Shown one piece after another: positions 15,598 to 63,644 of a stretch of DNA of 64,000 nt. The position numbers and the translations under genes are program-made. Location of the stretch: positions 310,001 to 374,000 of the forward strand of contig JAJEKV010000249.1 in the NCBI GenBank assembly GCA_021234155.1. Reading direction: 5' to 3'. The notes under the pieces are model-generated. The model did no database searches. It saw nothing but the letters and a program-made list of their open reading frames with translations, and was not told the DNA's origin. The stretch comes from Isoetes taiwanensis. Lineage: Eukaryota > Streptophyta > Lycopodiopsida > Isoetales > Isoetaceae. How positions within the stretch are numbered: the stretch's first letter is position 1; every line of letters begins with the position of its first letter.

Positions 15598-15618
15598 TTT
15601 TTTTTTTTTTTTTTTTTT

Positions 15619-19627: not shown

Positions 19628-19630
19628 GGA

Positions 19631-21309: not shown

Positions 21310-22374
21310 CCTAGGATGGGTCCTATGAGACAACTAGTTGGCCAATGAAGTGGTGTTCTCATTGAGCTTTGTAAAACATTGAGTACAAATGGATCCCTCA
21401 CTAGGGATAGATAAATTTGGAAATATGAACTTTTAATGCTCCGAAACTAGACAATCATCGAGAGCATGATGAAACTGAAGAACATAAAAGATGGTTTTAT
21501 TCGCCACTTGGTCGATGCAAAGGTGAGAAGACTCGGTGACTGCTCCTCATCGGGAAGACGAACCATGCCTTCTTAGGTTTTGGAGGACACCCAAGCAAAT
21601 AGTTGAAGCACGACCCCACGCACTATGGCAACCACAAGACCTTAGACAATCCTGCAGAATCAAGGCCGAAAGAAAAAATAACCCGTCAATGAGTTAGATG
21701 CCATAGGCAAGAAACCCTGAGGCTCCTGTGGCCACGAAAGAAAGAAACAACGACCCACCAATCGGAAACCGGCGTTTGGAATGACCATCATGGGGAAAAA
21801 CAACCGATTAGTGCCGCCTCCGGAGGCTACTGGCCCGCCCATACTTGTGAGAAAACATGAAATAATAAATATCGACTCAGAGGCTACAATGCCGCACCGA
21901 GAGAAAACATGAATGAAATGATAAGTCTCGGAGGCTACAGTGCCACGCCGAGAAAAATTGAAAAATAAAACGTATGCAAATTGCCACGCTGAGAGAAAAT
22001 GAACAAGAAAACATGTCTCGAAGGCCACAACCACAACGAGAACGAATGAAAAGATAAGAAAGTCTCGGAGGCTACAGTGACACGCCGAGAAAAATGAAAA
22101 ATTAAGAATATATGCACTACCAAAGAAGATAGAAAGAAAGCATGGAAGATATCAGGGGCTATAAGGTGACGAAATGAATCACAAGCTCAAATATAACAGA
22201 GGGAGAGGAGGGGCGGGAAACTGGTGGAGCAAAAAATGAGCAGAATAGAAAGGAGCTCAAGAGAACGCCGATGGCTGGAAATGAGGAAGGAGGCGGTATA
22301 AATAGGGAGAGAGTAGGAGCGTCCCCATCCAGGAATGGCGATTCTATTGCTATTGCAATAGAATCGTGGCATTC
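21310..22374 (+). mobile_element. Helitron-like unit A, non-autonomous
   Basis: Starts CCTAGGATGGGTCCTATGAG (21310) and ends with an 11-bp hairpin (22341-22366, TATT loop) eight bases before the end GTGGCATT. Unit B shares ~36 bp of the start and ~160 bp of the end but has a different interior. This shared-ends pattern and the hairpin near the 3' end resemble Helitrons, yet the canonical CTRR end is absent, so the class is uncertain. The interior holds 60-70-bp repeats of CTCGGAGGCTACAGTGCCAC (21870-22095). A TATA-like GGTATAAATAGGG lies near the right end. Confidence 0.5.
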
Positions 22375-22409
22375 CTAGGATGGGTCCTATGAGACAACTA
22401 GTTGGCCGA

Positions 22410-25400
22410 TAGAAGAGGAATCAACCTCAAAAAGAATGGATCAAACCAAGATGACAAGGAAAAATCTGTCCACAAATGAAACGAAGGAAGAAATTGGCAG
22501 AAAAGACGATTGAAAAAGATCAGGCAAAGGAGGTAAACAAATAAACTGCGAAGCAAGGCTGATAGAGTAACTGGAATAATCAACGTAGAAGGCACAAAGA
22601 TGATATATGGATGCCAACAGAGAAAGAAAAGTAAAAACAAACCAAGAGGAGACATGGTAAAGGTTGAAATATATAGTCCAGAGGACTAGCATAATACAAT
22701 GGTGCAAGTAAGCCCAAAGATAAACGAAGCAACGGGGGTAAATACGCACAAACATAATGGACTGGGAACAAAGGAGTCGATGGGATGAGCGAAGTAAGGA
22801 AAACAAGTGGAAAAAAGAGGCCAATCAAAATAAGGCAAAAAAGGCACTACACAAAGGAGATAAGGGGGTCAAAGAGAATATCGGACAAGGGAAGAGACCG
22901 AACAATGATATATTCAGTCAAAGAAAAGGACTGACGGGGAGAAAATGGACAACAGAGAAAAGAAAGAGAAGGAAACATTGTTAAAAAGGACAAAATAGAT
23001 CGAAAGAAATGGGACGAAAAAATGTGGCACACTAGAATATGTGGGACAACTCTCGAGGAATGAAGAAAACACCAAGCAGACCAAATCAACAAACATGACA
23101 ATAACAAGGGATACCTGAGACAACAACATTATGCGTAAGAGAAATTCCAGGACAAAAAGAGACGGCATAATAAAACTGATGGCAAAGGCAAAACAAGAGA
23201 AATAATGAGAGGAAATGAAATAAGGCAAAGGTAAATGGTCCAAAGACGCAAATTAGACAGAAGGAGTGAGTAAACCATGATTAAAGGAGTCCAAATAGAA
23301 GAAAGCGATCTAAAGAACAAATATAACTACAGACTGCAGATGAGAAAAAAGATGAAGGAAATAATAGACTCAAATAAAGAAAGCAAGAGAAATAAATAAA
23401 CTGTGGATCGAAAAATGAAGGAGAAAATGAGTCAAGAAAGGGGCCAATAGAATAAAAAAGGAGCCAATCCGAGAACATGGACTAAAGCCGGAATAATTGA
23501 ATGGGAGACAATTAACACTAAACTAATAGGAGGTATGCATGTGGAACGGGACCAACGGAATAAACAACTCACAGAGAACAAAGACCTACGATGCAACATG
23601 GCCAAGTAGAGCAAATTGAAAAAAGGGAACAAGCAACAAATGGGATAATATGATCTAAGGTTTCCGCAACACCAAGAATCGACAAAGTCAATGGGGCAAC
23701 CAAAAAGGAGACTAATGAAACAACGTGAACAAAGGCATAATAGAACTATCAAAGGAGCCAATGGGACCTAACCAAATAGCTACAGCAAATGGAGCATGTA
23801 GGAAACAATAGAAAAACTGATACTCATGGAAACATATAACCCAAAAAGAGGTACAATGACACAGCGGAGCTATGAAAACAATCGCAACCAAAACATAAAA
23901 AGTGGAATAACCTAGAGTAATGTGTACATAGAACTATACCCATAGGAAAAAAATAAAAAAAAAATAAATAAATAAAGCATTAGGACCACGTGAAAATACA
24001 AGGGCATGGAATATGAGTCGACATGTAAGATATATGCAATGCTCCAACGTAAAGCCAAGTACAAAAAACAACTCTAAATGCTCAAAACCAACCATATAAA
24101 GCATACAACTACAATAGAGCTATGAAAATGCAAAATCCAAGAGATGAGTCAACATTGTAAGGTATGCAGAGTGTAAGCCCAAGATAACGCCAAGTACACA
24201 AAACAACTCCAGGTCCCACAAACAACCATAAAAGCAGCCACAACTACAAAACGGGGCCATGAAATGTGAAACCCAAAAAGAACGGTTAACTAAGCAGGAG
24301 AATGATTCTGAATATGAAGAATGATCAATCCCCTAGAGAAAGATGAGCAAAGAAGGAGACAAGACCACCGATCGCTAGACGAAATAAATCAAGTAAATGC
24401 ATACATCTATAACCAAACGCACCACCCAATAAATGAATTAATCTAAAAAGCTGAACACAAAGAAAAAACAGAAAGAATATGAAACATGATTCCGACATGC
24501 CAAAACAACGAGAGCATACTATCAGTAAGAAACAACGTAGACCAAAGTTAACAAGTCTGCAATGAATGAAAAGGATAAAAAACTGGTCGGAGAGAATGGA
24601 TGGAACGAGAGAAATTCGATGAAAGAGCAAAGTTATGATAGACATCCAACTCTGGACATATTATTACATCGAGAAACAGAACTCATCCCTGCCAAACGCA
24701 CATAAGTAAAGAGCGAATAGCAAACCGAACCATGAGTAAAAGAAATGAAACAAATGTGTGTTTTGAAGACTGAAGATCTAAGATGCAAAGGATGCGAGCA
24801 TAGAGAATGCAAAGATCAAATTGCATAGAATTGATAAGCAATAATCGAGGCATCAAACTGAAGTTACGAAATGCTCAAAAGGATGCTCTTACTAAAAAAT
24901 GGAACTTTTAGAGCAAAAAAGCTCATATGCAAAGAGAAACTTACCAAGAGAGAATGCAAAGATCAACGAGCAACTGGGTACATAGAGAAAACCAAGGGGA
25001 TTCAAGCGGTTAAAGAACTAAAAAGGAGCTTGATGAAACTAGGAGCAAAAGGGAGGTAAAAAGGATGAACAAAAAATGAACCCTCCTTTCAGGCAAACAA
25101 GTCGAACTAGAAAGAATGGCAATGTGAATATAGAAACGGAGACCATGGACAATGAAGATAAGACCGCATGCAAAAGTCTTATAGGCCCTTAAGGTAGCCA
25201 TGAAAAAAACTAAGAAAAGAGTGTACAAAGGCCCTCAAAGACATCCATGAGAAAGAATTGAGGATTATGGGAATGGATCATGCACCTATCTAGAGAATAC
25301 ATAATAACAGCACCATAAACGGAAAACGATTTGCACAATCATAGAACAAATGAGCCAAAGAACCTAGAAAACAATAAAAGAAAACTACAGATCATGATGT

Positions 25401-26950
25401 ACGTCTAATCTAAGCAATCAGATGAACCCCAAATGACTAGAATGTCAAAGCACATAAAGCCTATGAAGACAAGCGTAAGCCCTAAGGAGATTACAAGGAC
25501 CCTGAACGTCCGCGACTAGCACTAAAAGCAAAAACATGGGCATGAGCCTGAAATCTGTAACCACAAAATAATATTGAAACTCATAGACATGACAAAAAGC
25601 AGAAAAAACGAGAACCACCAAAAACTAGACAATGTAAGCACAAGGACAACATCGAGGAACAAAACAAGTATGGAAAGGGACATACCAACCCTATACGCTT
25701 ATACAAGCACATATGGTACTTTCGAATATGATCCGCCAAGTCAAGGGAGCATGGAGATAGCCAAAGGCTAAAAATGAAAGTATTAAAATGAAAAAAAAAT
25801 AAGCGCATGGGACCAAAAAACCAAGCCATGGTGAAGATACACCTCCAAAGGAAGAAGAGATTGGGCGCAACCAACTCATATAGCTGTGCAACATATAACC
25901 AAGAGATACAAAAAAAACGACCCCAATGAGCAAACGAATAGGTCCAAACATTGCAGACAAACTCAACGAACAAACAAGGGCAAAGTGAACCTGAACATAC
26001 CTGCACAATGATCCCTATTCCGAGCGGAGGGTGCAACCATGATAAATGTACATGGCAAAAAAAATATGTTCAAGTCCCCATGATAGGGAGTACAAAGCCA
26101 GAGAGACATCAATCTAGTGTTTGAGGGGGGCAGGGACCTTGATTATGTGCGACTCACATCGTCACAAAGAAAACCATGCAACTTGAGTTAGAAGGAACCA
26201 AAAGCGATAAAGTTCCATTCAAACCGTACGATATCAAATGTGAAATTCAATACCCCATGATTACAACAAGATGAAATGCCTATGCAATGTCAATTGTACA
26301 CATGCTACAAACCATACAACGCTATTGCGAAGAGGACAACAAAGGCATGTAAGAGGCATATACGCTTAAAATATCGATTCAAGAGAATAAGAAAAGTATA
26401 GCTGTCAACATCAAGAGAAATGAACAAGGAGGACCACTAAAACAAAGCTTCCGGATGCATTATGAATAGCAAGCCCTATATGCAAACTTACTCTCATGCC
26501 ACTTTCATTACAGAAAGCAGGTCACAAGCCATCTTACCGGAATAGATCATGTACATCTTATTACTTAAATATGTTAACTGTTTGCTATGTAACCCTTGCA
26601 CATGTATGTGATCAACGCCACCATTGATTTCCTCACATAATCCGCCATGATGAGCAACCTTGAGAAGTTGGTTAATATGGGGCATCGATAGAAGTGTATA
26701 TGCAAGAGTATCACATGCAACAACTTATATGTTCACATAGCGTTAGGCTGTAACATAGAAAATGAAAAGCTCAAAGAAATTAACGAGCAAGCATAACATA
26801 TAATGAATAACACGAGATCCAGACAAATGCAAGAGTAAAATACAATGAGCAGGGGACATAAGATCCGACAAACGCAAAAGAGTAAAATACAATGAACAAG
26901 AACACGATAAACAGAAAACACCCCTACTTACCAAACTCATAGAGCAAGCA
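22410..26950. other. purine-biased tract with no recognisable gene
   Basis: The plus strand is A/G-rich and T-poor for ~4.5 kb. This removes stops from minus-strand frames and creates long spurious minus ORFs with hydrophobic, Phe/Leu/Ser-rich translations. No domain, tandem period or splice pattern was found. Confidence 0.5.
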
Positions 26951-27109
26951 CATTACAATTTTAAGAAGGAAAAAGAATGCGCTCGGTAACCTTAGAGAAA
27001 AGGGGCAAGGGAAACCGATGCACGGTATCCCCGCCCAAGAAAGCAACCGTCCACGAGGCGGTGGCGATCGGCCATGGGTGTCGGGATGCAGGCGGATTTG
27101 AGATCTGAT

Positions 27110-27365
27110 GCAGTGTGTGGATGCCGCAATCTCCAAAACCAACACATTCCGAGTTTGTGTTTATATATCTCGTAAGTTGTCTCCTGCTGAACAAAATTAC
27201 CCAGTGCATGATCTAGAAATGTTGGCCATTATCCATGCCTTGAGGGTATGGAGACATTATTTGCTGGGTCGTCGTTTCTTTTTGAAGACTGACCACCAAA
27301 ATCTGAAGTATTTTGCAAAACAACCATATTTGAATAATAGGCAAAGGAGGTGGATGCTCAACTAA
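27110..27365 (+). pseudogene. Ty3/gypsy RNase H fragment
   Basis: SRKLSPAEQNYPVHDLEMLA, ALRVWRHYLLGRRFFLKTDHQNL and NNRQRRWML are the C-terminal part of a gypsy RNase H. The sequence before about 27150 is unrelated, so the 5' side is a rearrangement joint. It is followed directly by an integrase C-terminus, with the integrase core deleted. Confidence 0.85.
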
Positions 27366-27870
27366 GGAGACTTCGCCAGAATTTGGCTGTGGCACAAAAT
27401 AGACAGAAGCAGTATGCAAATAAGAGACGTAGACCACTTGAATTTCAAAAAGGGGATTATGTGTTTTTGAGGATTAATCCCAAGCAGAGTTCACTGGCAT
27501 TTAAAAGTGCAGGTAAATGGGCCCCTAGGTATGCGGGTCCGTATGAGATTTTGGAACGTATTGGCAAGGTGGCCTACAAGTTGGAGTTACCCTCGCACTT
27601 GAAAGTACATAACGTTTTCCATGTGAGTAACTTGAGGAAGTATGTTTTTGATCCTTTCCATATGCTGGGGGACGATGATTTAGTAAGCAGGGAGAACTTT
27701 TACGTACCCCCACCGGAGGCGTATTTTTATGAGAGGAAACCCGTCGCTTAAGGAGGCGAACAATACGGAGATTTTTGGTTCAATGGGCGGGTTGTCCTGA
27801 GGAAGATGCCACATGGGAAGATGCCAATTGGATTCTTCGTGAGTTTCCGGAGATGCACCCATGAGGACAT
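27366..27870 (+). pseudogene. Chromovirus integrase C-terminus and chromodomain
   Basis: RQKQYANKRRRPLEFQKGDY, KLELPSHLKVHNVFHVSNLR and PPPEAYFYERKPVA. After a frame change comes FLVQWAGCPEEDATWEDANW, a chromodomain typical of plant chromoviruses, which target heterochromatin. The frame shift at about 27750 and the missing integrase core mark it as defunct. Confidence 0.85.
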
Positions 27871-27894
27871 GGGTTGAATTTTTGGAGGAGAGAC

Positions 27895-29184
27895 TGTAAC
27901 GGACCTAGGATTTTGAGGTATATTGTGGAATTATTTTATTAAAGGATGCAAAGGAATAATAATTGAAATATTATGCATGCAGAGTATATATATATCGTAT
28001 ATGTAGAGATTATACGGCTAAATATACTGGTGATTAATAATAAATACAAGTACAGCGTGAAGCATTGGGAAGGCGATAGATTGCAGTCGAATTGCTGAAG
28101 GAGCAGGGTGTGAGCAATACCTGGGAGTGTGTTGGAGTGCAGAGGGAGCAAGCGGGATTCCAGGTGGGGATCAAGACTTACACCTGGGGTTTTTCTAGTG
28201 TAGTATCTCTGCGCTTGTTGTTTTTTATTTGTTTGTTGTTATGCATCGCATTCAACATGGGATTAGACTTGGATTATGTGAGCATGGTAAACATAAATGC
28301 CAGGTATGAATAGGGAATCTTTGGTATTGGAATACTGTGGCTTGCATGGCTAGTAATGTAACTAATATTTTCCTCATATTTCCATCAAGAAATAGTTGTA
28401 ACTGTAATCTATGATAGCGAAATTTGGAATGGTTTGGATTGGTTAGAACTTGGAAGAATGGATTAAAAATCTAAATTGATGAAGCAAGAACAAGCAAGGA
28501 CAAAGAAGATATTTCCTTGCAAAGCAGGCGGCGTGGGCATAATCTTTGCCGATTTGGCATGCTCCAAAAGCATGTGAATCGCCTGGAATGGGCCGATTTG
28601 GGCCTTGAGAAGGCCGAAATGTGGGAAAACACGTAATCGGGAAGATTGAAGTAGAATTTGGTGTAAATATCATGATCATGGGCCTCGAGAATCGACCGAC
28701 CTAATCGCCGGATTAGGGCCATAACTGGCCGAAATGGCTTGGAAGCCTCTTTGCCGAGAAAATCGAAAAGCTTCATGCTTTTTCCAAGCCGAATTGATGG
28801 CCCGGATGCCGGTCCGGAAACCGCTGGTCGGATTTCGGCGGGGAAGTAAATCAATTAGAATCATCTTGTTCGCCACAAACAATACAATTTGGCATGGAAA
28901 TCCTCAGTAGGAGCGAGAATCGGCCGCATCCAAGCGGTTTTGGGCTGGGTCCGATGGCCCTGGAGGCCGGATTCACGAGCCGCAGCCGTGTTAGTAAACT
29001 GCACGTTAGGTTAGAAAAAAAAGGTTAAATTAATAGTTAGTTAAAAATGTTAACGAAATGTTACAAGAAGATAGAGGTTAACTTAAGTAATAGTGGATAT
29101 AAGCTATTTATGGTTATTAATCAACAATTTGCAGGTTAGCTAGCTAGATATTGGGGTATGTTGGAATTAGTCAGATGAATGATG
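27895..29184 (+). repeat. probable chromovirus LTR and flank, right edge unknown
   Basis: TGTAACGGACCTAGG at 27895 starts soon after the chromodomain stop, where a 3' LTR is expected. I could not find the matching end. The interval also holds AT-rich and GGCCGA-rich segments with no gene. Confidence 0.35.
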
Positions 29185-29336
29185 GCCGCCAAAACCATAC
29201 AGATTTCATGCATTAGAGATGGCTGAATTGAAGAAACAGTTAGCGGAATTATTGGAACAAGGGTTTATACGGCCGAGTGTTTCTCCATTTGGGGCGCCAG
29301 TTTTGTTTGTTAAGAAGAAAGACGGGACATTAAGGT
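29185..29336 (+). pseudogene. Ty3/gypsy RT N-terminal fragment
   Basis: [20 protein letters not shown] ... [20 protein letters not shown], the start of a gypsy RT. It breaks abruptly at about 29336 into purine-biased sequence. Confidence 0.85.
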
Positions 29337-30068
29337 TGTCTCCGACTAAGGAAAGGAAAAAATGAGCATAGAGGCACCAGACGAACTCAGACATGGGCTG
29401 TTGCAAACCTCGGATTAGTTTGAAAGAAGATTCTGAAACGAACAGAAAGGGGCATCGATCCATGGTAAGATGCACAGATGAGGAAGATGCATCCCCAGCA
29501 CCAACCCATCATGTAAACACGGCCCAGAATCAAGCAAAAAGGTAATCAAAGTGGGCTGGGTAGGATCGAGAGTAAACCAGGAAGCAGAGAAAACAAGGTA
29601 GGAAACCAGAACCTCAAGATTTCTGAGAAAAAATATGAGAAACTGGAATGCAAGCTGGAACTTCCTGAACCAAACAAACTGAAAATCGAAGACATGGGAA
29701 AGAGGGAAGCAAACAATCCACCAAGGGCGGGCAGAGCGCAGAGATCAGATGGCAAAGGAGAGACCCAAACAAAAGAGGCTATCATCGGAAGAACTTGAAG
29801 TAAAGGATCCAGCAAAATCACTCGAAACCCACATGCTTAGCCGCAGATCAAACCAAAACCACTCGAATCAAACTAGCTTGTAACCACAGACCAAACACAG
29901 TGAAAAAGAACAAACCAATCCATCGAATCAAACTCACCTTTGAAAAGCCAAAGAACCAGAGTGAAGACAACAGCACCTCGAAAGCAATCACACAAAGCTA
30001 TCCCGTTGAGAAGAAAGAAGCAGAAATAATTTGACGCTTATCTCTTATCTGGTAGGAGAATAGATAGG
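29337..30068. other. purine/A-rich sequence, no gene
   Basis: Similar in composition to 22.4-26.9 kb and runs to the conserved tail of unit B. Confidence 0.4.
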
Positions 30069-30230
30069 ATGAAAACTGGTGGAGCAAAAAATGAGCAGAA
30101 TAGAAAGGAGCTCAAGAGAACGCCGATGGCTGGAAATGAGGAAGGAGGCGGTATAAATAGGAGAGCAAGGTAGGGCGTCCCCATCCAAGGAATGGCAATT
30201 CTATTGCTATTGCAATAGAATCGTGGCATT

Positions 30231-30935
30231 GCCATAGGAAACAAAATTTGGAAACAAGCTAGTGGTATTCCAATGGGATTTCCTTGTAGTCCGAGTTGGT
30301 GTAATCTATACCTAGCGTGGTTTGAGTTAATCTTCATCAAAGGGTTAGCTGCACAAGGAAAATTTCACATTATTGACACGTTTAAATCTGTGTTTCGATA
30401 CATGGATGATTTGCTGGCTATAAACTGTCCCTTTATTAAAGATTTTTTGAGTAAGGATACTACTTTGAACACTAGTGGGCTGCAAATATATGATATGGAC
30501 AGACTTGGAATTAAGGAGAAAACCATCTTCTCAAATGATGGTCCCAATAATCTGATCTATGGACAATCTGCCAACTTTCTGAACTTGAAAATCGAGATTG
30601 TCAACAGAACACATGGAATATACAGAACTGTCAAATACGATAAAAGGGATAGTTTACCTTTTAAAGCTATTAGATACATCCATGCTGATGGTTGCAGACC
30701 GTATCACCAATCCAGAAATGTTATCTTGTCCCAAATACTTCCATGTTTGTACATCAACTCCTGTCATACTGGAGCAACTCGAGACATTATTAACCTCATA
30801 CACACCTTTATGGGAAAAGGCTTTGACTGTTACAATCTCAAGAAGAGAGTTCTGAAGTATATCAAAGGCAATATTTTTCCTGGGATGAAGTTTGAAGCCA
30901 ATGAGATATGTGAAGCCATTGACTCCTACTTCTAG
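30231..30935 (+). pseudogene. Penelope-like reverse transcriptase, C-terminal third
   Basis: Continues 21309 without frame loss: AIGNKIWKQASGIPMGFPCS (motif B) and FRYMDDLLAIN (motif C with DD at about 30402). Then NFLNLKIEI (motif D/E-like) and a C-terminal thumb region (KAIRYIHADGCRPYHQSRNV ... HTFMGKGFDCYNLKKRVLKY). Stop at 30933-30935. No GIY-YIG endonuclease motif follows within the element. Confidence 0.8.
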
Positions 30936-31108
30936 TAATTAAGGTAAAATTGTTCTACCTTTTCTATAAACTTTTACTTTGGCAGCTTAGCCCATATAGG
31001 GTGTGGCAAGGCTCCTGCTCTGAGTAGGGGCCTGCCACCCCTATCTTAGAGTATGTAATCAGGAACTCTAGTATGCCTCACTCTACGGTTGGAGGAAGGC
31101 TTTTTTTT
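30936..31108 (+). other. Penelope-like 3' UTR with hairpin
   Basis: GTGGCAAGGCTCCTG (about 31001) pairs with GGGGCCTGCCAC (about 31026-31037). The T8 run then marks the junction with the second repeat copy. Confidence 0.5.
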
Positions 31109-33401
31109 GTAAAGCATAAATTTGCTTGTATGTAATTAGGAAAGAAATGTTTCTCAAAATAATAAACATAATTGTCACATACCATTCTTGTATGAAAATT
31201 ACATGGTCTTTACCATTCCGGGTTTTTTTTAAAAGGGTCTTGGTAGTTACACCAGCTTCCAATGTAATATGGGGGCTTGAACTATTTCCTTATACCTTGG
31301 CTATATGAAGTTAAGCCTATAAATATAAAATATTCTTTTAACTAAAGGTAAACCTAAAAGCCAAATATCTCTGAAGAGTTATGAACGATGGCGGAGCGGG
31401 ATTCCCTACCCGGAACGGATTTGGCTGGACTCTGCCCCAAAATAATCTGACAGGTTCGTCTTAAAACACCAGCTGGTGCATGAACTTTCTTTTCCCGGGC
31501 TTTTTCTAGCAATGGATCAGTGGGACCTCATTCTAGAAGACGACCTCCCCTTTTCTGAAGCGGCAAATCAGCGCCTAAATGAGCAGGCCCTTAACAGGGA
31601 AATTGATTTTTGCTTGCAAGATCTAGATCTGAGTCAAAATATGGATAACTATGGTAAACGTGGAAGGCATAACTATGGTGGCCAGCCTCCAAACAGAAGA
31701 TTCCAGAACTCCCATAGACAGAGCTATGGGAATGCTTCTCCTTATGTTCCTGAAACGCAGTATATGGCTGAGCAGGACTCAGACACTGAAGATAACCAGG
31801 TATTTATCACTATAAAATTATGGTACAGGAGTGATATACTTACCTTTAACAGTAACAGATGAATGGCTATGCAAATGGGGAGCTTAATAGACTCTGAATT
31901 CTCCCAACTATAGTGTTTTAAAGAATATCCATAAATAATGATGTTACAGCCTTGCATGGCTTTGAAAATCTTAATTAGTATTGCTTTTTTTCATTGCATC
32001 TTTTTCTGTGCTCTTTTTGTATTATTGGGCAAAAGGATTACATTAGGCGATCGGTGATAAACCGAGAAGCCCAATGTACCTTTTGGCCCTTGCACTGTTA
32101 CCATTATCATGCTAACAGTGTATTGATTGGCTGCAGGTACGGGCTTCTCTTCCTAATGTTCTACTTTTGTCCAGTTTATATTAGGAGCTTTCAGGATGTG
32201 GATTGCAGCAGGGACGGGTTCTAAATGACAAAGATTATGTTCTCTTAAGAAAAGCTAAAGTAAGAAAGGACATAGATGTGTTAAAAATGGGAACGAAAAA
32301 CACTTGCACTTGATACGTGCCTCTTTTACTACTGTTCCTTAAGCAAAGGTACTATGTTTTGATTGAAATTTTGCTGGTGATCTTTATTATCTTTTGCTGG
32401 CTGGTATCTATAGCCTATCACCATTTTTGAAACTTCTGAATGTTTGGTATCCCAAACTGAAAATATGATGCTCTTATTAATGCTAAAACTTGGGCATTCT
32501 AGCCACCTTACCTTATTATTAGCTTTTATGATTAAGCATGATTTCTTAAATCTTGATTTATCCTATGAATATTTTGTATCCTAAACTGGAAATATGCTGC
32601 TGATAGAGATGCTAAAACTTGGGCATTCTAGCCACCTTATTTTTAAATTGCTTCTACTGTCCAGATTAGTGTATTAATCTAAAACAGTTGTTGACAATCG
32701 ATTGACTATCAATGGTTAAATTGTACCAAGCTTTGAAGCAAAGTTATTTTGTTATACAAGTTCTCCTATGGTTCGCTGTTACACTTGTAATCCATAGTCA
32801 AATCAATGGTCTCTATTTCTGTCTAATTGCTTTCACAGGATGTAACAAATGGTAAGGCTGCATGAATAGCTAAGTCTGCTTGTTACATAACAGAAATATT
32901 TGGTTCATGTAGCATGTTACTTTAGAATCAAATATGAAACTGGAAATTTGTATATGACATTTAGTGCATCCAGACACTTAGTAATCCATAGTATAACAGA
33001 TGTTACAATAAACTGAAAGTTGGTCACTTCGGTAATATGATGGTTTATGACTAAATTTAATAAAGCTTGTTGCTAGGTCTACCTTTCTACTTGCTTTTAT
33101 GATTAAGCATGACTACTCAAATCTAGACATAACCTATGAAAAAGTATTATCATGGGTCTTAAATTATTGATAAGGAGTAAAGTATTGACTTATTATGCCT
33201 CAGTTTGCTAGGCATAACATGTTATATTGGAACATAGGTTAGTATGTTCTGACTTGATGATGGTAATTACAGTAGCAGATCTTATACTTTGGAAAAATGG
33301 TACCATCTGGAACTATGTTCTTGTATGGCCAGATAAGACAGCAGAGGGATTGACCAATGCTGATGTTTGTGCTAGTGTTTACTAATTCAAGCCGGCTTTT
33401 T
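31109..33401 (+). repeat. Penelope-like direct repeat, second copy
   Basis: Starts GTAAAGCATAAATTTGCTTG after T8 and stops inside intron 1 at a T tract. It keeps an intact exon 1 and splice donor, unlike the first copy. Confidence 0.95.
31512..31799 (+). CDS. Penelope-like ORF1 exon 1, intact copy
   Basis: 96 codons from ATG 31512 to the donor CAG/GTATTT (GT at 31800), in phase 0. The end DTEDNQ joins in frame to GDYDNQEETE at 18065 in the main body. This supports the intron model, although this exon lies in the downstream partial copy. The N-terminus is acidic and the second half is Arg/Asn/Gln/Gly-rich. No known domain. Confidence 0.65.
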
Positions 33402-53052: not shown

Positions 53053-54721
53053 TGTGACGTTCCAGGACAGTATACGGTCCCAGGACGTATACTGTACTGC
53101 CTCGTCACGCGTACACGCCACTCCGACCGACGTGTACGCCAACGTGTAGCTAGGCTAGTAGCCCTAGGGGGCAACGCGCAAGGAGTGTGCATTTATTAAT
53201 GTGCACATTAAACAATGTGCACATTCACTTAGGTGCACATTTTCCCATATGGCCATTTCATGCCAAGTGGGCCACACCCATAGGTGCAATTAATGTGCAC
53301 ATTTTCCAATGTACACATTAATGTGGGCACACATTTCCATGTGGGCACATTTTGCCACCTAGCCATTAAAGGCAAGTGGGCCCATTCCCAATTATCCCAC
53401 ATGCCTAAAGGGGATAATTGGAAACCCTAGCCAACCCCTTGTCTATTAAAGGAGAGAAACCCTAACTTGCCCAATTTTCGTTTCTAGGGTTTTAGAACTC
53501 TGTTTTGGCTGCCTCAACAGCCAAAACCGCATCCCAGACTCTGCCTGAGAGAATTGCATCATTAGTTTCCCTTGATTCGAGCGTTTCAGCAGGATGGTCG
53601 AGCTCAGGTCAGGAGGAGCCACTCAAGGATCAGGTATTTGGCCAGTTAGATAGTCTAAACCCTATTTCAGTCATAGAATCAGTAGGTTTAGCCTATTAAA
53701 TTGCCCATAACAGCCTTCTAGATCTCTAGATACCAGCCTCTAACTAAAGAACCTAACTCTATGATGTAGATTAGATATAGTTCTTTAGTTCTTCTGTGAA
53801 GTATGTGGATGATGTTTCTCTATGAACTCCTTGTATTGGGAAGGGGGGTAGAGACCTAGAGCTTGGTAGTAGATGCTCCTAGAGTAGCCTCTCTAGCACA
53901 CTATAGATTCGGCCTGTGTACAAGAGCCACACCGGGTTGTGGGTGAAGGGGGCCAGACTGGCTGAGAAGGAGGTTCATGTCCTGACTCCTGAACGATCCC
54001 TCTGGTGTGTAAAGCCTACCAGGGATCATTGTGACTAGGTCTGATGGCTTGCCACTGCGTGTGGGCAAGGCATGGGCTCGACACCCCGCGGAAGTGGTGT
54101 ACACTTTCCAGTGGGGTTCACTGAATAGGCGGTGGCCCTCTAGTTACCTTGAGTCAGCATGTAGATCTCTCGGAGGGAGTGATCCCTTTCCGCCCCATCG
54201 AACCGGGAGGATGAAACCGTGAATAGCCCTTTTGGCTATGCATCCGGCGGCTTCTGATCCGGTCCCAACACTTTTCGACCTACTGCGCAAAGTGTGCACG
54301 GGGAGGGGCGGATGGAGTGGACAACCCTATGCCATGTTCTTATGCCAGCCAAATCCATTGCCATGAATTGCATGCGTAATGATCTCTAGAGACCCAAGCC
54401 GTCAGTCATTCCCTTGAGTCTGAGCCTTGGGTAGAACTCCCCATATGTATTGTGCTCACCTTGTTTATGCAGATGTGATGGGCCACCCCGAGGTGGCTAT
54501 GTGCTTATGTTATATACTGACATGTATGTTTACGCTTCCGCAGCTAGGTAGACCCTGAGGGAGACGGGGTAAATGACCCCTTCACTCTTCCCACTGGAAC
54601 CCGCCACGGTTCGCGGCGTTATGTGGAGGGCCCCAGATCGGCATGGAGTCGGGTATGGGGGATGAACTCTGTTTGTATACACGGTGAGAGTGCAGGTATC
54701 ATAGTAGTAGGGGACGTCACA
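53053..54721 (+). repeat. 5' LTR, 1669 bp
   Basis: Ends are TGTGACGT and ACGTCACA. The left third is rich in (A)TGTGCACATT words (53190-53350). TCTATTAAAGG (about 53441) is a plausible TATA region, followed by a leader that includes TAGGGTTTTAG. No coding region. Confidence 0.85.
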
Positions 54722-54722
54722 G

Positions 54723-54734
54723 TGGTATCAGAGC
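54723..54734 (+). promoter_or_regulatory. primer-binding site, initiator-Met tRNA
   Basis: TGGTATCAGAGC starts one base after the LTR end, the usual plant gypsy arrangement. Confidence 0.9.
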
Positions 54735-54925
54735 AATGTTCTTGGTGACCAAGAGCAAAGCACTGACCATGTTCCCAGTAGTACTAACTTGATAGGATCC
54801 TTAAACCTCGAAAAATGAGAAAATTTTCTTCTCATTTTTGTAGTTTTGCTAAGCTAGTAACAGTTAAAATGAATAAAAACGTAACAAGACTAAAATTGGT
54901 GAGCCAACATCCAAAAAGTAGGGTG

Positions 54926-54992
54926 GTCTCACACGTCGCGCCAGGACAGAATTTGAGATTCTCAAAATCGGGCTGGGCGCAACGTGTGAGAC
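54926..54992 (+). repeat. 67-nt hairpin, copy 1
   Basis: GTCTCACACGT pairs with ACGTGTGAGAC; inner GCGCCAG with CTGGGCGC; core ATTTGAGA with TCTCAAAAT. Lies in the leader after the primer site. Confidence 0.9.
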
Positions 54993-55126
54993 ATTCAGCT
55001 TAATCGCTTAAAAAGTCATAAATCACAGTAAAATAACTTGATAAATCTAAATTTAAGCTAAGAATCATTAGAATTGGCATGTTACATGTTTTAAAAGTAC
55101 AAAATTTAGTTAGTGGGTCCCACCAT

Positions 55127-55193
55127 GTCTCACACGTCGCGCCAGGACAGATTTTGAGATTCTCGAAATCGGGCTGGGCGCAACGTGTGAGAC
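55127..55193 (+). repeat. 67-nt hairpin, copy 2
   Basis: Same structure, one core mismatch (TCTCGAAATC). Lies 77 bp before the TATA box of the H3-like ORF. Confidence 0.9.
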
Positions 55194-55269
55194 CTTGCTT
55201 AATTAGGGGTTTTAGATGTTTTAAGCAACCCAAAAAGGTAGTTTAAAAGTTGACCTAAAAATTGACCCC

Positions 55270-55277
55270 TATAAATA
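55270..55277 (+). promoter_or_regulatory. TATA box before the H3-like ORF
   Basis: TATAAATA, 108 bp upstream of ATG 55378. The leader between them contains AAGGCGATCTTCCGGC, also present (AGGCGATCTTCCAGC) in front of the second cassette ORF. Confidence 0.55.
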
Positions 55278-55377: not shown

Positions 55378-55995
55378 ATGATGGCCCACACAAAACAGAC
55401 TGCAAGGAAGCCTCGCCGAAGCGAATCATCCAGCGCCAGCGGCTCTGGCCTCTTTCAGAGAGTCCTTCAAGAACGCCTTTTCCGGGGAGGCGAATCTTCT
55501 TCGAGCGAAGATGCAGGATCGGATCGGAGCGACCACACAGAGATCATAGACGACGACCGGCCAGACATCATGCATCAAATCCTAGAGGACATCGCAGCGG
55601 AGGAGGAGAGGACCAGGGAGCAAAGGGAGCAGAAAGGGCAGCCAATAGCCGAGGAGCAACACCAGAATGAGACCCACACACAGGAAGAACAGGGGAGAGA
55701 AGAGCAGCAGCCGCCGAAGCTCACCCCGGATGAAGAAGCCGATCTTGCACGCTTCATAAGCAAGTATGAAGCCAAAGAACGCCACGGAGCAGAGGGACTA
55801 AGAGTCCGAAGACAGTCTCACCAATGCCGCCGGGCCAAAGAAGAGAAAGGCCAAAGCCATCAAGGCAGCCGGCAGGAAAGTTGTGAAGGTCGGCAAGCGA
55901 GCGACGGGTCCCGTAATCAACGAACCATCAGGCGAAGAGACCCCGCCTTCCACCGACGACTCGGACCAAGACTACGTACCCGGCACAGATCATTA
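55378..55995 (+). pseudogene. Histone H3-tail-like N-terminal part of retrotransposon ORF
   Basis: Two adjacent ATGs; from the second (55381) the product begins M-AHTKQTARKPRRS. After Met removal, residues 1-9 match the H3 tail at 8 of 9 positions (H for R2), keeping K4 and K9, with Pro for Ser10. A Ser-rich, then very acidic Glu/Gln-rich linker follows (EEADLARFISKYEAK). Near 55800 reading shifts by +1 into ESEDSLTNAAGPKKRKAKAI ... DDSDQDYVPGTDH, which includes a GPKKRK nuclear-signal-like motif. A MITE-like insertion then breaks the ORF. It appears to continue at about 56549 and end in an H3 fold. Inferred role: a chromatin-entering H3 mimic. Pseudogenised copy. Confidence 0.75.
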
Positions 55996-56547
55996 GAGGT
56001 AATTTGAGATCTCATTTTGTCCCATTAAGGGATGCTTAAAAAGCCACATCGCCTTTTTTAAAGCGTGTCCAATAAGAGAAGAGCTCCAAAGTGTATTTTA
56101 TTCCAAAGATATGTGGCAAAGATAATTAATGCAGTTCTAACTAACTTTTGCAGTGTCATTTTTCTACTATAACTTTTGATCAAAAACTCCGATGCGAACA
56201 CTATTTGTAGCAATGGATTCGTCTCCTCAAGATCTTTCTAATGACAACCCATTGTTATATCTTTTGGGATGTAAATATATAAGAAAAGAGCAAAAAACCA
56301 TATTTTTTAAGGTTAACACATATGGCTTGTATTGAAATACATCATAACCATATATCACTTGAAAGATCTTTTCATTCTGCATCTAATGCAACAAACGCCG
56401 CAGCATTTTCATGAGTAGATCAAAAGTTATAGGGAAAAAACGACAGCAATGAAGTTGTTAATGTTGCATTAATTGCAGTTTGATGTAGAGTACTCATTCT
56501 ATTGGAGGATTCTTATGGGGACAAAAGGAGATCTCAAATTACCTCTA
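55996..56547. mobile_element. 552-bp MITE-like insertion in the H3-like ORF
   Basis: Ends GAGGTAATTTGAGATCTC and its inverse complement are ~30-bp inverted repeats, flanked by TA (55994-55995 and 56546-56547). Inner inverted pieces (AACTTTTGATCAAAAACTCC versus AGATCAAAAGTTATAGG) make it partly palindromic. No coding. TA duplication and inverted ends fit a Tc1/mariner-type MITE. Its length is a multiple of 3, but a TAG/TAA stop remains at the junction. GAG/GTAATT also looks like a splice donor, so an exapted intron cannot be excluded. Confidence 0.65.
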
Positions 56548-56548
56548 A

Positions 56549-57190
56549 TGTGGAGCGAGTTCGTCAAAACCCCCGCCTGTAGAGAAGGAAGTGCCCCAGC
56601 AGGTAGCACAGGAGCAGGAGGAGGCCGGACAGGTGGCGAAGCCCCCACCGTTCCCGACATGGGATAGGGTCAAAGCCCCACGGCCACAACGGGAGGCATA
56701 TGTGATAGACCCTGTCAAGGTCTATCAGAAGAGGATCAAGGAGCACAACGCTTACATGGCGAAGTGGGAGGCCTACAATGCCTACTACCAGGAGCACAGG
56801 GTGAGAACAGTCGAAGGTGGAGTACCCCCGAAGCGGACTCTGAAGCCACCCCCACCAAAGCCCAAGCCTCCCAGAGCACCAGGAAAGAAGCGGGCCGGCA
56901 AGAAGAAGCTGGAGAACAGAGCCCTCAAGGAAATCCGGCACTTCCAGAGGAGCTACGGACTCTTGATTCCCCGGGCACCGTTTCAACGTTTGGTCCGCGA
57001 GGTCATACAGGAGTATAACACGGACATGCGAGTAACCGACGAGATGTTGCTGTGCCTACAAGAGGCAGCAGAGGCAAAGATAGTGCAGCATTTTGAAGAT
57101 TCAACGGCCTGCACAGTGCACGCGAAGAGGGTCACCCTCATGAGGCAGGATATGTATCTTGCTAGGCACATCAAGGGAGAGCGGCCTTGA
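56549..57190 (+). pseudogene. Histone H3-fold C-terminal part of retrotransposon ORF
   Basis: Open from about 56549 in the frame of the GPKKRK segment; no ATG is needed if it continues that ORF (the only near start at 56591 is GTG). Linker: Pro/Gln-rich (SSSKPPPVEKEVPQQVAQ), then helical YQKRIKEHNAYMAKWEAYNA and a basic Pro-rich hinge. From about 56915 the H3 fold: RALKEIRHFQRS (alpha-N), PRAPFQRLVREVIQEYNTD (alpha-1), CLQEAAEAKIVQHFED (alpha-2), VHAKRVTLMRQDMYLARHIK (alpha-3), ending GERP. Loop 1 has canonical H3 length, not the longer CENH3 form. H3 is normally ~135 residues; here tail and fold are over 300 residues apart. Stop 57188-57190. Confidence 0.88.
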
Positions 57191-57484
57191 AACCTTTTTG
57201 TAAATAAGGAACATTTTGTTAATATAAAGAATTTTTATGTAATTAATGTGTCTAATCTAGCTTAATTAAGTTAAGTTAGAGAATTCTACTCTTTGGGTTT
57301 AGTTAATTTGGAGCTTTGAGCAAAATTGAGACGATGTCTCACACGTCGCGCCAGGACAGATTTTGAGATTCTCAAAATCGGGCTGGGCGCAACGTGTGAG
57401 ACCATGCCCAAAAGTGCCCAAAACAGCTCCAAATCGACCAAATAAGGGGGTCAATTCTGCCTAACTCGACGAGTTTAGTGGAAT
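57191..57484. other. 3' flank of H3-like ORF
   Basis: AATATAAAG and AATTAATGTG-type AT-rich sequence could serve polyadenylation. Contains hairpin copy 3. No further ORF. Confidence 0.4.
57336..57402 (+). repeat. 67-nt hairpin, copy 3
   Basis: Core GATTTTGAGA/TCTCAAAATC is perfect. Lies 146 bp after the H3-like stop codon. Confidence 0.9.
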
Positions 57485-58545: not shown

Positions 58546-58594
58546 CAGCCTTAAATCACCCAACTTGATTAAGTCTAGCCCAATTAGGGCCCAT

Positions 58595-58661
58595 GTCTCA
58601 CGCGTCGCGCCAGGACAGAAAATGAGATTCTCAAAATCGGTCTGGGCGCAACGTGTGAGAC
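58595..58661 (+). repeat. 67-nt hairpin, copy 4
   Basis: Outer left arm reads GTCTCACGCGT, core AAAATGAGA. Lies 181 bp before the TATA box of the second cassette. Confidence 0.9.
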
Positions 58662-58841
58662 CTCGTGTCATTTTCTTCACCAAATGATCTCCAAGTTGTT
58701 GCAATAGGTTCATTAGTTGTTCTTAGCATGCTCAAACCTTAGAAGTAGTCTTCAAACTCGCAATTGCATCCTTTAATAGGTCAGAATCACCTAATCTCAG
58801 TAAATTCTAGGTCATCCAAAAATTAGGGTTTCCCCATTTTC

Positions 58842-58849
58842 TATAAATA
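58842..58849 (+). promoter_or_regulatory. TATA box before the second cassette ORF
   Basis: TATAAATA, 122 bp upstream of ATG 58964, with the shared leader motif AGGCGATCTTCCAGC between. Confidence 0.55.
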
Positions 58850-58963: not shown

Positions 58964-60482
58964 ATGGCCACTGCTGACTTCGGGCGATGGTACAGCGCCA
59001 GTGCCCATGCTGCCGAGGCGGATGTCAACGACATCTTCCAAGTCTTTGGGAAAGAAATTGATATCCAAGCTACGCTAAATGCAACCCCAGCATATAGACA
59101 AGTCCTAGCAGAATTCCAAGCTATGGTAGGACCCTCCCTTGTCCAGTCCCCTTGCATAGGCTATTTTGTCCCCGCCCATCCCTTCAAGCAGACCTTGGGG
59201 ATGTCCCCAACATCGCCAAGTACCGACCAACAAAGCGCCAAAGGCTGCCGGACTACATGGTCCTGACAGCCAACAGGATCAAGTACTTCTCCTACACCGC
59301 GGCCTTAGCCATCTTCTTATCCCACCGTGCGAAAACCCAATGGGGCAACCTCTATCCCTCAGATGGAGGTGGACCCCATAGCATCTGACAGAAGAAGAAG
59401 CGGATGTGCTTGCGATGACCGGCAAGAGCAGGAAGGAAAAGACGAAGAAGAAGAGGAGTCCGGCGACAATAAGTACCGCGGAGCTCGTTCGAGGAGGAGG
59501 AACGGCAACAAGCGAGGGGAGATGGTGAACTTCGAGCGGCCCGGTAACATCGGGGATTGCTCCCCACTCCGGGCTAGGCATCACAAGCCTAGCCCCTATC
59601 ATCATCAGGAGAGGAGTTCCTACTCCTCCGGCGATATCCGTAACCTCCCCGAATGCGGGGAGAGGGAGCCGATTGGGACGAATGCTCCACCAAGCTGGCC
59701 AGCCAGAGCATGGGCGACTTCATCATCTGGGGAGCCTGGGACTTTCCGCTCAAGTAAGAGAAGCCGAGCACTTACATAGGAGAGTCGACTTGAGACACTC
59801 TGAGAACCCTACAAAGAGTATCGGGCAAATGATGGAGGAGCAAGAGCTGCCGGAGGAGGAGTTCCTCGCCCGAGAGCAGATGGGGATGGGTGGGAAGACC
59901 ACGAGCATTCTAATGCCGAGACCTTCGACACCACCTCCATTAAGAGGAGAAGGAATCGACCTCGAGGAGAATCGACACCATAATCGAAGACTGTGGAGCT
60001 CACCGAGATAGAGGTCGTAACACGCGGGACTGACATAGAACAGAGGTCAATCGAGCGAAGAAGCTTCAGCCGACGACAATGACAGTCCCCGAGGTACTAC
60101 CTCCGCCGGCCGCTAGATGGTAGAATAGCGGTAATCCACCGCAAGTTCAGCCCCGTGAGGTGAAGAAGGAGTGTTCATGCTGATTGCACTCTCGGGCTTC
60201 GGCGGAGGCATGCTCGCATAGCGCCAAATGTCGACTATGCCGTCCCGGGTCAAGAGAGCAATGGCACTTGACCTCTTCGACTTCGCCATACCCCATCGAC
60301 GTCAGGCGAGATTAGCGGTCACCGCAGCTCTTACATCCGACCGCAGGGTAGAAGATCTGGTGAGAGCCTTGCAGGGCGGCTCGTCGGCAAGCATCATCAG
60401 GAACTTGGGTCATTCGGTAGGAACGGCCCAAGTTAAAAAGTTCCTTGAGGACAACCCGTCTTACCGGCGATTTCAAGACTAG
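58964..60482 (+). pseudogene. Second cassette ORF, unknown protein, several frameshifts
   Basis: Begins MATADFGRWYSASAHAAEAD. After a frame change near 59190 it reads LGDVPNIAKYRPTKRQRLPD and NRIKYFSYTAALAIFLSHRA. A low-complexity acidic/basic middle (EEEEESGDNKYRGARSRRRN in one frame) follows. The best-preserved end is RRVEDLVRALQGGSSASIIR ... TAQVKKFLEDNPSYRRFQD, stop 60480-60482. It shares promoter layout and leader motif with the H3-like cassette but has no visible histone fold. Function unknown; possibly a partner protein. Codon-level reconstruction is unsafe in this copy. Confidence 0.5.
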
Positions 60483-60663: not shown

Positions 60664-61672
60664 GTTAGAGGCCTAGGCTCAGGCGAGCGACAACGCCAAG
60701 ACCTTAGGGAAGAACAGAGACCACCCCCGGCAAGGAACTTATTCGAAGAAATGGAACCCATGACCCCAGAGGAGGAGATATCCCAGATGAGGACGGACCT
60801 TGAACAGATAAAGGCTCTATTAGCCGCACAAGCAGGAGCAGGTTCGGTGGGCAATGCTCAATTGCCACAAGCATCAGCTCGGAAAACGGGAAGGGACAAG
60901 AAGAGGAGCAAGAGAAGGAGATCCCCCAGCTCGGATTCCTCCGACTCAAGCTCGCACTCGCACCACTCGAGGAAGAGGAAGAGCAGGCCCAGGGACCGAG
61001 AGCAGATGGAAGGCAAAAGGAACAATCAAGAGGGAAGGCAGAGAAACACCCCGTGAGGGACGACAAAGGGACACTGTGGCCTCGACTACCGTAAGAAGGT
61101 AGACTCCGCGACTAGGCAATGTATGGAAGGCCGGAATCGAACAGATTCTCAGGGGAGAACAGGTCAGGATTAGAAGCAGAAGCATGGCTGGATGAGATGA
61201 GTGAGTACGGCAATGCTTATGGCATGAAGGATGAAGACAAAGGAAGAGTGGCAACAGCCAACTTGAAAGGAGCCGCACGGATTTGGTGGAAGGGTTATGC
61301 AAAGGCACATGGCTTAAGCAGGGATGCTTGTAAGTTCAGGAAGTTTGCTAAAGCCTTCAAGCGCCATTATTGTTCAAAGGGAACATAAGTCCAAAGATGA
61401 TGCAGCAGTTCTATAGGCTCCAACAGGGAAACAAATCAGTCCAGAAATATACAGAGGAATTCATGAGGCTGAGGCTGTATGTGCCAAAATTGGGTGAGAA
61501 GCATGCAGTAGAAAGCTATAAGGGGCTGAATGAGGAGATCCGCAAGCTTGTGAGGGCAATAAACCCTAAGACAGTATCAGAAGCAGAGTCCAAGGCTATA
61601 AGCTTACAAGGGACGGGACATCAGAATAGCGGACAGAGGCAGCGGCATTTCAGGACAAAGGCAAGGCGATGA
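60664..61672 (+). pseudogene. Ty3/gypsy gag (capsid region), frameshifted
   Basis: The N-terminus holds a coiled-coil-like part (EEEISQMRTDLEQIKALLAA) and a nuclear-signal-like Lys/Arg/Ser block (DKKRSKRRRSPSSDSSDSSS). The capsid homology region runs from AEAWLDEMSEYGNAYGMKDE and ARIWWKGYAKAHG to KAFKRHYCSKG. Reading changes frame near 61375 to NISPKMMQQFYRLQQGNKSV ... EEFMRLRLYVP, the usual retrotransposon gag core. Breaks at about 61050-61120 and 61375. Confidence 0.85.
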
Positions 61673-61700
61673 GGAACTATAGCCCTAGAGCAGCAAAGTC

Positions 61701-62057
61701 GTGTCCAAATTAGAGCCCCATATGGTGGCAAACCGGGAAAACAGAGAAGAAGCGTGTGTCCTTCAAGGACAAGCGAGGAGGGTCAAACTACTCCAAAGCA
61801 AAGGCGATCCTTTTGCGGCGATGCCCAAGGAAAAGAGACAGGAGTGCATAGAAAAGCAGCTTTGCTTCAGGTGCTTCCAGCCAGGCCATAGGACAGCGAA
61901 CTGCCCTTACGTCATGAGTGCAGCGCTAGCGGAATTGGGGGATTGGGACACTCTGTCTGACGACGACGGCGACGAAGGCCGCGACTACATTCAGGGTGAG
62001 TGTCATATCTTTGCCGCAATAGATCTGAGAGCAAAGCGGAGAGCCGTGATAAAGTAA
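61701..62057 (+). pseudogene. gag nucleocapsid with zinc knuckle
   Basis: KEKRQECIEKQLCFRCFQPG continues HRTANCPY: one CX2CX4HX4C knuckle (CFRCFQPGHRTANC, about 61864-61905) that binds element RNA. Then an acidic stretch (LSDDDGDEGRD). It overlaps the next frame, with pol shifted. Confidence 0.85.
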
Positions 62058-63553
62058 TTTCCACAGTAGGGAAGGCTAAGACCAAGTCATTCATAGTCTT
62101 GATAGACTCAGGAAGTAGCCATAACTTTGCATCCCCCAGAATGGTTCAAATGTTGAAGTTGAAACCACTAAAGTCAAAGCCAAGGCCCGTTGTCTTAGCA
62201 AGTGGTGCAGTAAGGCAGACGGCAGGCAAGAGAATTAACTTCGACATCGACTTGCCAGGGATTAATATCCAGATGGGGGCAGAAGTAATGGGCATTGGCA
62301 AGTACGACTTGATTATAGGAATGGAGTACCTTGGACCAGCAGGGGCCATTATCGATTGTGGAAAGCGGAAGATGACCTTCCCAACACCCGGCGGCAAGAT
62401 TATTGAGATAACAGGTAAGGAAGTTATTCCCATCATGCAGTGTATGTCTTCTAAACGGCTGTTCAAGTGCATCAAGAGTGAGCAAGTGGCATACATTTTC
62501 AAGCTTGAGATTAGTGAGCCGGAATCGGAAGGAAGCAAAGAAGACAAGGTGCTCAGCAAGTTGCCGAAGCAAATAGCTAAGCTGATCACGGAGTTCCATG
62601 ATCTCTTTCCAGATGAGATCAAGCAGCTCCCTCCTTATAGGGGAGTCGAGTGCGAGATAGCACTCGAACCGGGAACAAAGCCAACAAGCAAGGCTCCATA
62701 TAGAATGACAACGCAGGAGTTGTCGGAGCTAAAGAAGCAGTTGCAGGAGCTGCTTGACCTAGGGTTCATTAGACCTAGTGTTTCGCCATTTGGAGCGCCC
62801 ATTCTCTTCGTTAAGAAGAAGGATGGCAGTTTAAGAATGTGCATAGACTATAGGCAGTTGAATAAGCACACCATCAAGAACAAGTATGCGCTTCCCAGAT
62901 CGGATGATTTGATGGATCAGCTTCAAGGAGCAAAGGTCTTCTCCAAAATCGACTTAAGGTCAGGCTATCATCAGATCCGGATAAAGGAAGAAGATATTCA
63001 TAAGACCGCTTTTAGAACGCGGTATGGGCACTATGAATTCACGGTAATGCCTTTCGGCTTATCGAATGCCCCCGCGACGTTCATGAGGCTCATGAACGAC
63101 ATCTTCAGGGAGTTTTTAGACACCTTTGTGATCGTATTCTTTGATGACATTTTGGTGTATAGCAGATCCCTCGAGGAGCACGTACAACACTTGAGGAGGG
63201 TGCTAGAGAAGTTGAAGAGGCACCAGTTGTACGCCAAGTTGTCGAAGTGTCACTTCGCAACGGAAAAGGTGGAGTATCTCGGTCATGTGATCTCAGCAGA
63301 AGGCATCTCGACGGATCCTGCAAAGATTGAAGCCGCTATTCAAAGGGTCGGGCACAAGAATGTGCATGAAGTCAGAAGTTTTCTCGGCCTAGCAGGGTAC
63401 TACAGGAAGTTCGTGAAGAACTTTGCTAAGATAGCAGCCCCGTTAACAGACTTGACGAGGGTGGAGAAAGTGAAAGATTGGGCAGAGCATTGGCACAAGA
63501 AAGCCCAAGCAGGGTTTGAACTGTTGAAGGAAGCTTTAACAACCGCCCCAACC
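62042..63553 (+). CDS. Ty3/gypsy protease and reverse transcriptase
   Basis: Protease active site [14 protein letters not shown] (about 62096). [77 protein letters not shown] (catalytic Asp), [29 protein letters not shown] (DD at about 63142; F-F-D-D instead of Y-V-D-D) and [12 protein letters not shown]. No internal stops across ~500 codons, so RT is the best-kept part. The open frame starts slightly earlier (62000) but overlaps nucleocapsid. Confidence 0.92.
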
Positions 63554-63644
63554 ATTAGGAAAAATTCGAAATTATAGTTTAATACAGCATTAATTTTATA
63601 CTAATAAATGGGTATACTGGAGTAATTAATAAGGGAGGCTAGTC
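63554..63644. other. ~91-bp AT-rich insertion between RT and RNase H
   Basis: The reading KEALTTAPT stops at 63553 and LTLPDPEKDKLVATDASK resumes at 63645. The AT-rich insert (ATTAGGAAAAATTCGAAATT ...) adds stops. No clear inverted ends or duplication beyond AACC on both sides. Confidence 0.6.

Follow-up and report, generated by a model that had tools for sequence, protein, structure and literature searches.

A histone H3-variant gene carried 5' of gag by a clade of Ty3/gypsy chromoviruses in Isoetes taiwanensis

The carrier element

The window analysed here is a stretch of 64,000 nucleotides from Isoetes taiwanensis (GenBank assembly GCA_021234155.1, contig JAJEKV010000249.1, positions 310,001 to 374,000, forward strand), and coordinates are those of the window unless otherwise given. 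It contains the greater part of a Ty3/gypsy chromovirus of 15,049 bp with two long terminal repeats (LTRs), a target duplication, a primer binding site (PBS) and a chromodomain. The 5' LTR (53053..54721, + strand; 1669 bp, TGTGACGT...ACGTCACA) is delimited by its partner LTR, the GGTGT flanks and genomic matches. The 3' LTR lies ~12 kb downstream (C390:376451-378101), is 93.8% identical to the 5' LTR and is preceded by a purine-rich, PPT-like stretch; the target duplication GGTGT flanks the element on both sides. Substitution rates of 7e-9 to 1.3e-8 per site and year, which do not come from this plant, would translate the K2P distance of 0.046 between the LTRs into an age of about 1.8 to 3.3 My.

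The element is laid out in the order LTR, PBS, two hairpins, TATA-like site, H3 gene, hairpin, hairpin, TATA-like site, ORF2, gag, pol with chromodomain, and LTR. The PBS, recognised from its sequence TGGTATCAGAGC (54723..54734, +), is one that we take to be of the initiator tRNA-Met type. The same TATA-like sequence, CTATAAATA, stands 5' of the H3 ORF (55269..55277, +) and 5' of ORF2 (58841..58849, +). A promoter motif common to the two genes is weak, with 6 of 1000 shuffles equally good. ORF2 (58964..60482, +) is broken in the window copy, and a sibling, L054, has an open stretch of 452 aa. The gag gene (60751..62057, +) has several frame changes, and its capsid and CCHC matches fall under the Pfam cut-offs (E.009 and.005); gag of a relative, L019, is above them. 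Protease and reverse transcriptase (RT; 62000..63577, +) both score above the cut-offs. Downstream of RT, beyond the window (L037), there follow an integrase SH3 region above cut-off and a chromodomain (PF00385, E=4e-10), which aligns best with that of Chd1.

The hairpin is a near-perfect structure of 66-77 nt (GTCTCACACGTCGCGCC...GGGCGCAACGTGTGAGAC), present in four copies that precede each internal TATA and follow the H3 gene. Repeat analysis found the first (54921..54997); the second (55122..55198) lies 5' of the H3 promoter and has a DNA fold z of -6.6, the third (57331..57407) 3' of the H3 ORF and the fourth (58590..58666) 5' of ORF2, none with a strand assigned. At least one hairpin occurs in six of eight sibling copies, and it also occurs in L054 and L055; it was not found in five loci checked from the more distant families A-C described below. 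It is possibly a regulatory or protein-binding site. The window has no Rfam match at the gathering threshold.

Elsewhere in the window, direct repeats of ~2.1 kb (15611-33242) lie 15.5 kb apart and are 100% identical in the listed segments of 193-300 nt; between them are ORFs of 570 and 471 aa with no Pfam match. They also enclose an RT at 30219-30935 (RVT_1, E=7.5e-4, under the cut-off), which has what we take to be a Penelope-like look. Diverged repeats occupy 9600-15300, and their spacing points to tandem units of about 1.08 kb.

The H3-like gene of the window copy

The H3-like ORF lies in three parts. The 5' part (55378..55806, +) starts with MMAHTKQTARKPRRSE and encodes H3 tail residues 1-9 followed by an acidic region. 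The protein opens with M(M)AHTKQTARKPRRS at 55378, 1.2 kb upstream of the fold ORF, and this N-terminus reads M(M)AHTKQTARK (R2H), against ARTKQTARK in H3. The next part (55802..55993, +; ...TDDSDQDYVPGTDH) is in a shifted frame; in the siblings L031 and L032 it forms one open frame with the rest. A MITE-like insert (55991..56550, no strand assigned) with 39-nt terminal inverted repeats (TIRs, 92%) has no counterpart in those two copies. The 3' part (56549..57190, +) encodes a linker helix, a basic hinge and the H3 fold (about 56909-57187). The gene is accordingly broken in the window copy, by the frame change about 55800 and by the 560-bp TIR insert.

A first-pass annotation, made from the letters alone, had read a complete H3 fold here, with a loop 1 of H3 length, on the coding strand of the element between its LTR/PBS and gag, and all of this is borne out. 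The 199-aa ORF at 56591-57187 matches Pfam Histone, the core-histone family (PF00125), with E=4.2e-26 and 92 bits (cut-off 26.4), so that the proposed profile match is significant, and it matches H3 chains of the PDB with E=2e-29, the top match being histone H3.3 (7ux9_E). The alignment with H3.3, with 50/92 residues identical, is free of gaps, and loop 1 is therefore of H3 length. An AlphaFold2 model places helices at the alpha-N and alpha-1 to alpha-3 places of H3, that is, a three-helix histone fold plus alpha-N, with mean pLDDT 70.7, pTM 0.35 and low confidence for much of the sequence that precedes the fold. All 50 Foldseek rows listed are chains from nucleosome or histone structures, at a whole-query TM-score of ~0.35.

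An origin from CENH3, the centromeric variant with a longer loop 1, is rejected by the gap-free alignment; the motifs LLIP and VTLM, which we take to look CENH3-like, also occur in H3 variants whose loop 1 has the H3 length. By alignment to H3.3 the protein retains H113, C110, D123, R116, T118, R83, R69 and R72, presumably H3-H3 and DNA contact positions, while R63, F84, Q85, L109, K122 and R129, among other contact positions, are altered in the window element and its siblings (together termed family D).

The fold that the first-pass annotation described stands, but it is not a bare one: in family D the unit is a protein of ~415 aa that opens with H3 residues 1-9 and closes with the fold. Tail and fold are thereby about 310 residues apart, versus 34 in canonical H3. 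No ARTKQTARKS tail directly joined to the fold was found; the copies that have ARTKQTARK continue with P or T at residue 10.

Sibling copies in the genome

The I. taiwanensis assembly (1,658,258,908 bases in 1110 contigs) was searched with the Pfam family, the H3 piece and the LTR. The first-look counts of 8705, 2338 and 10271 are loose candidates rather than confirmed copies; the best candidates alone were scored (150 Pfam-family candidates and 40 in each DNA search), and copy numbers are therefore lower bounds. The best 40 of the 2338 H3-piece candidates, window included, are 87-100% identical over ~640 nt, and most of the best 40 of the 10271 LTR candidates match at full length. At least six of the best 40 H3 matches (the window and five other loci) pair with a scored LTR match at fitting spacing.

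Eight sibling copies were read together with their upstream DNA. L031 and L032 have open frames of 424 and 421 codons, counted from stop to stop. The exact ARTKQTARK is found in four (L030, L031, L032 and L036), L034 has ARTKQTARI, L035 and L029 are further altered, and L033 comes without the tail side. The TATA-like site is present in seven of the eight. In six, the gene is preceded immediately by the same LTR end and PBS. Copies with the ORF, as counted from H3 matches, are many, which goes against the first-pass annotation's own alternative of a single insertion that other copies of the family would lack. A host gene that happens to lie beside a transposon, or a lone chance insertion, is ruled out by the many copies.

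A pattern for the H3 tail has 583 exact places in the genome, and its reversed control none. Among the first 100 places listed, 93 have K9-P or K9-A rather than K9-S10, with 51 spellings. Position 2 is R in 89 of those 93, where the pattern allowed six residues; it prescribed all remaining tail residues, which are therefore no test of conservation. Seven of the first 100 places lie 0.55-1.2 kb 5' of D fold matches, and host H3 genes are among the rest of the 583.

Three further families

The 150 best PF00125 matches fall into 15 at 164-165 bits and 135 at 144-155 bits. The eight that were fetched from the upper group are canonical host H3, and each of the 20 fetched from the lower group belongs to an open frame of 185-494 aa that ends in an H3 fold. 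By start peptide these 20 loci form families A (14 loci), B (2) and C (4), and the upstream protein regions are homologous among the five A-C representatives compared. An H3-bearing element, as first annotated, is therefore confirmed, not as a single element but as at least four families.

Gene order in families A-C is the same as in the window element where it was read. A PBS (at most one mismatch) follows a window-like LTR end (..CGTCACA) in 15/20 loci, 596-797 nt 5' of the ORF. ORF2 is present in 5/5 loci read, gag or protease in three (L016, L019 and L027) and RT matches in 12/20. A TATA-like site near the ATG occurs in 3/20 loci, so that a promoter of its own is at best a feature of D. 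ORF2 of families D and C is homologous (L027 ORF2 versus L054, E=1e-10). Open stretches of ORF2 reach ~490 aa and lie 3' of the H3 gene in the five A-C loci and in two D copies read. Besides Histone there was no Pfam match above cut-off for ORF2 of L011 and L027 or for the upstream region of the A-C proteins, and pieces of the window ORF2 have weak Pfam matches, all under cut-off. Against the PDB, the A upstream region (L011) gave no match with E<=1, and ORF2 of L027 a single chance-level match (E=0.44).

A quick tree that used 25 of 110 full-length database RTs, not all from named plants, and that omits L020, L021, L024, L027 and L028 for short or weak matches, groups the RTs of the window element and of seven A-C elements in a single clade (SH-aLRT 99). 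We show that a chromovirus clade bears an H3-variant gene, followed by ORF2, between PBS and gag.

In the H3-fold tree, whose bootstrap is unsettled, A, B and C form a clade (98/96) beside host and plant H3s, and D stands alone on a long branch (100/100). One clade of all A-D folds is rejected in a quick tree (p-AU 0.02), and the D upstream protein region has no detectable homology with that of A-C; a single shared H3 capture is accordingly not supported. Judged from these sequences, family D may either have diverged far or have taken up H3 separately. Families A-C keep a short vestige of the tail, with K as the fifth residue at the start and a GGK-like trace before the fold. A tail split in two by the upstream region is suggestive only, because the search patterns contained that K.

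Selection on the histone fold

In the D fold, across the 22 of 25 copies that are in frame, pN is.022 and pS.380, a ratio of.057 (resampling.028-.098), which means that selection acted on the protein during the element's spread. These copies were picked by DNA similarity from the upper and lower parts of the best 40 (24 of the 39 others fetched), and L035, L049 and L053 were left out for frame breaks. The ratio is.130 in the linker helix and.231 in the basic hinge. Differences among D copies fall 14/6/80% on the three codon positions, with a like trend when columns touching CpG are removed. The A-C ratios of.071,.016 and.042 are biased downward, since those loci were chosen by protein score.

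In simulated neutral decay from H3.3 to equal identity, the profile score was reached in 0/500 runs, with a profile trained on matches found with the window sequence and hence favouring that sequence. A BLOSUM score, a weaker control that is free of this bias, was reached in 5/2000.

Synonymous sites of the D fold have diverged more (.355, six copies) than has the non-coding DNA on its 5' side, from PBS to TATA (.094, the same six and L035). The low non-coding value may reflect constraint or recombination.

A host H3 gene transduced once and carried along as a mere hitch-hiker, as fungal hAT elements with captured H3 and inactivated copies (PMC6710886, as far as its accessible text goes) and the broken window copy might suggest, would lack constraint on its protein, and we consider it highly improbable given the pN/pS of.057, the gene order common to the families and the RT clade.

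Relation to known systems

No LTR element with a histone gene is named in the parts we could consult of the full-text literature searched, surveys included; preprint servers and most subscription journals were outside its scope. In the accessible main text of the genome papers for I. taiwanensis (PMC8566536) and I. sinensis (PMC10541799) the word histone is absent. The nearest precedent, in the portions of PMC6710886 available, is a group of Dothideomycete hAT DNA transposons that captured and amplified H3 to hundreds of copies in P. fijiensis, where truncation affects 90% of copies and every copy except the original has been inactivated by RIP. The window element differs in being of LTR type, in its enlarged protein and in selection across copies.

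Orchid Ty3/gypsy elements carry an m6A demethylase (2-ODD) domain as an extra ORF, and resemble the present case in having fixed a host regulatory domain (PMC9289625, available text). That study screened 121 angiosperm genomes and reported 15 unusual domains; in its main text, so far as available, 'histone' occurs twice and never as a captured domain. The extra ORFs of plant LTR elements termed aORF and eORF are likewise sense ORFs of the internal region; here the gene lies 5' of gag. No captured histone is named in the accessible parts of PMC7264820 and PMC6317226. In the present elements, all copies read share a conserved fold and location of the gene. Viral histones (PMC9145170) likewise give a parasite a divergent histone, but in DNA viruses, and the text of that article available to us has no word beginning 'retro'.

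The elements and their copies may also be set beside chromatin countermeasures of another kind. VANDAL anti-silencing proteins are such a countermeasure, encoded by an element that, as here, has repeated motifs in its non-coding DNA; they offer an analogy only, being no histones and belonging to a DNA transposon.

Among the 120 listed of 483 matches in a protein search with the window H3, none exceeds 62% identity, and the one at that level covers 44% of the query. A further search, aimed at longer proteins, yielded five distant matches, and an IMG/VR scan gave 27 pattern stretches and no relative. Eight ENA proteins (P0023, P0024, P0032, P0049, P0050, P0053, P0098 and P0099) have H3 folds after long N-terminal extensions that are mostly related to one another (..YPPI.R.L..LYIS..KER..LG..); these may represent a further H3 family, mobile or amplified, of some other organism.

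Possible functions

The proposal that a plant LTR element captured H3 and expanded it is supported by the long H3-bearing ORFs, the many matches, the common gene order and purifying selection. Our overall explanation, to which we give a probability of about one half, is that the chromovirus clade carries a selected, captured H3 variant that enters nucleosomes and there counters silencing or aids the integrase. An H3 gene of the host lineage would have been captured and then enlarged inside the tail near K9/S10. Its product would pair with host H4 and enter nucleosomes, as the retained H3-H3 and DNA contacts lead us to infer. There it would offer K4 and K9, with the K14-K36 context lost (D) or most of the tail lost (A-C). 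On new or silenced copies this could yield chromatin that host silencing marks incompletely, or that the element's own chromodomain integrase recognises, or both. ORF2 might encode a partner of the element H3. Open frames, together with the TATA in D, suggest that the H3 gene may be expressed.

Of the two benefits, interference with silencing seems to us the likelier, since the H3 tail bears the silencing marks and is the very part that has been remodelled in these proteins: D retains residues 1-9 and replaces S10 and the K14-K36 context. A bolder form of the explanation, which we advance only tentatively, would have the lineage specify its own chromatin, a modular H3 with its K4/K9 tail ~310 residues off the fold being placed on the element's own copies as silencing antagonist and integrase docking site at once.

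The main rival is integration targeting, in which element H3 at certain loci would be a landing mark for the integrase chromodomain and new copies would go there. The presence of a chromodomain in the same element speaks for it, as does its closeness to Chd1, with what we read as Leu at the first and third places of the HP1 aromatic cage; but this reading depends on how HP1 is aligned, and families A-C are without an intact tail. According to the accessible text of PMC6317226, chromodomains of this kind (type II) have no known partner and chromoviruses of non-seed plants keep the cage, so that the window element would be an exception. As the main benefit, targeting seems to us rather unlikely.

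We rate somewhat lower a soluble decoy acting outside nucleosomes, whose ARTKQTARK tail would tie up H4, H3-H4 chaperones, or writers and readers of H3K9. The exact tail in half of the D siblings read, the hundreds of tail places and the long insert between tail and fold would suit it, but purifying selection covers the whole fold, and the H3-H3 and DNA-contact residues are kept. Improbable, too, is packaging, by which the H3 variant or ORF2 protein might compact element cDNA or particles before integration, a role that has been suggested for histones of certain DNA viruses: the gene does lie 5' of gag and viral histones do exist (PMC9145170, in the text available), but no second histone gene was noticed among the ORFs read, and the particle would therefore have to contain H4 from the host.

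Returning to the captured, selected variant that enters nucleosomes, histones are the substrate of host transposon silencing, and a retrotransposon lineage that retains its own H3 over many cycles of copying would be intervening directly in that conflict. It would make testable questions of how chromatin parasites could evolve, what the partner of cage-less plant chromodomains is and how far H3 can be remodelled and still function. Transposons may moreover inflate the number of H3 genes that profile searches report from such genomes.
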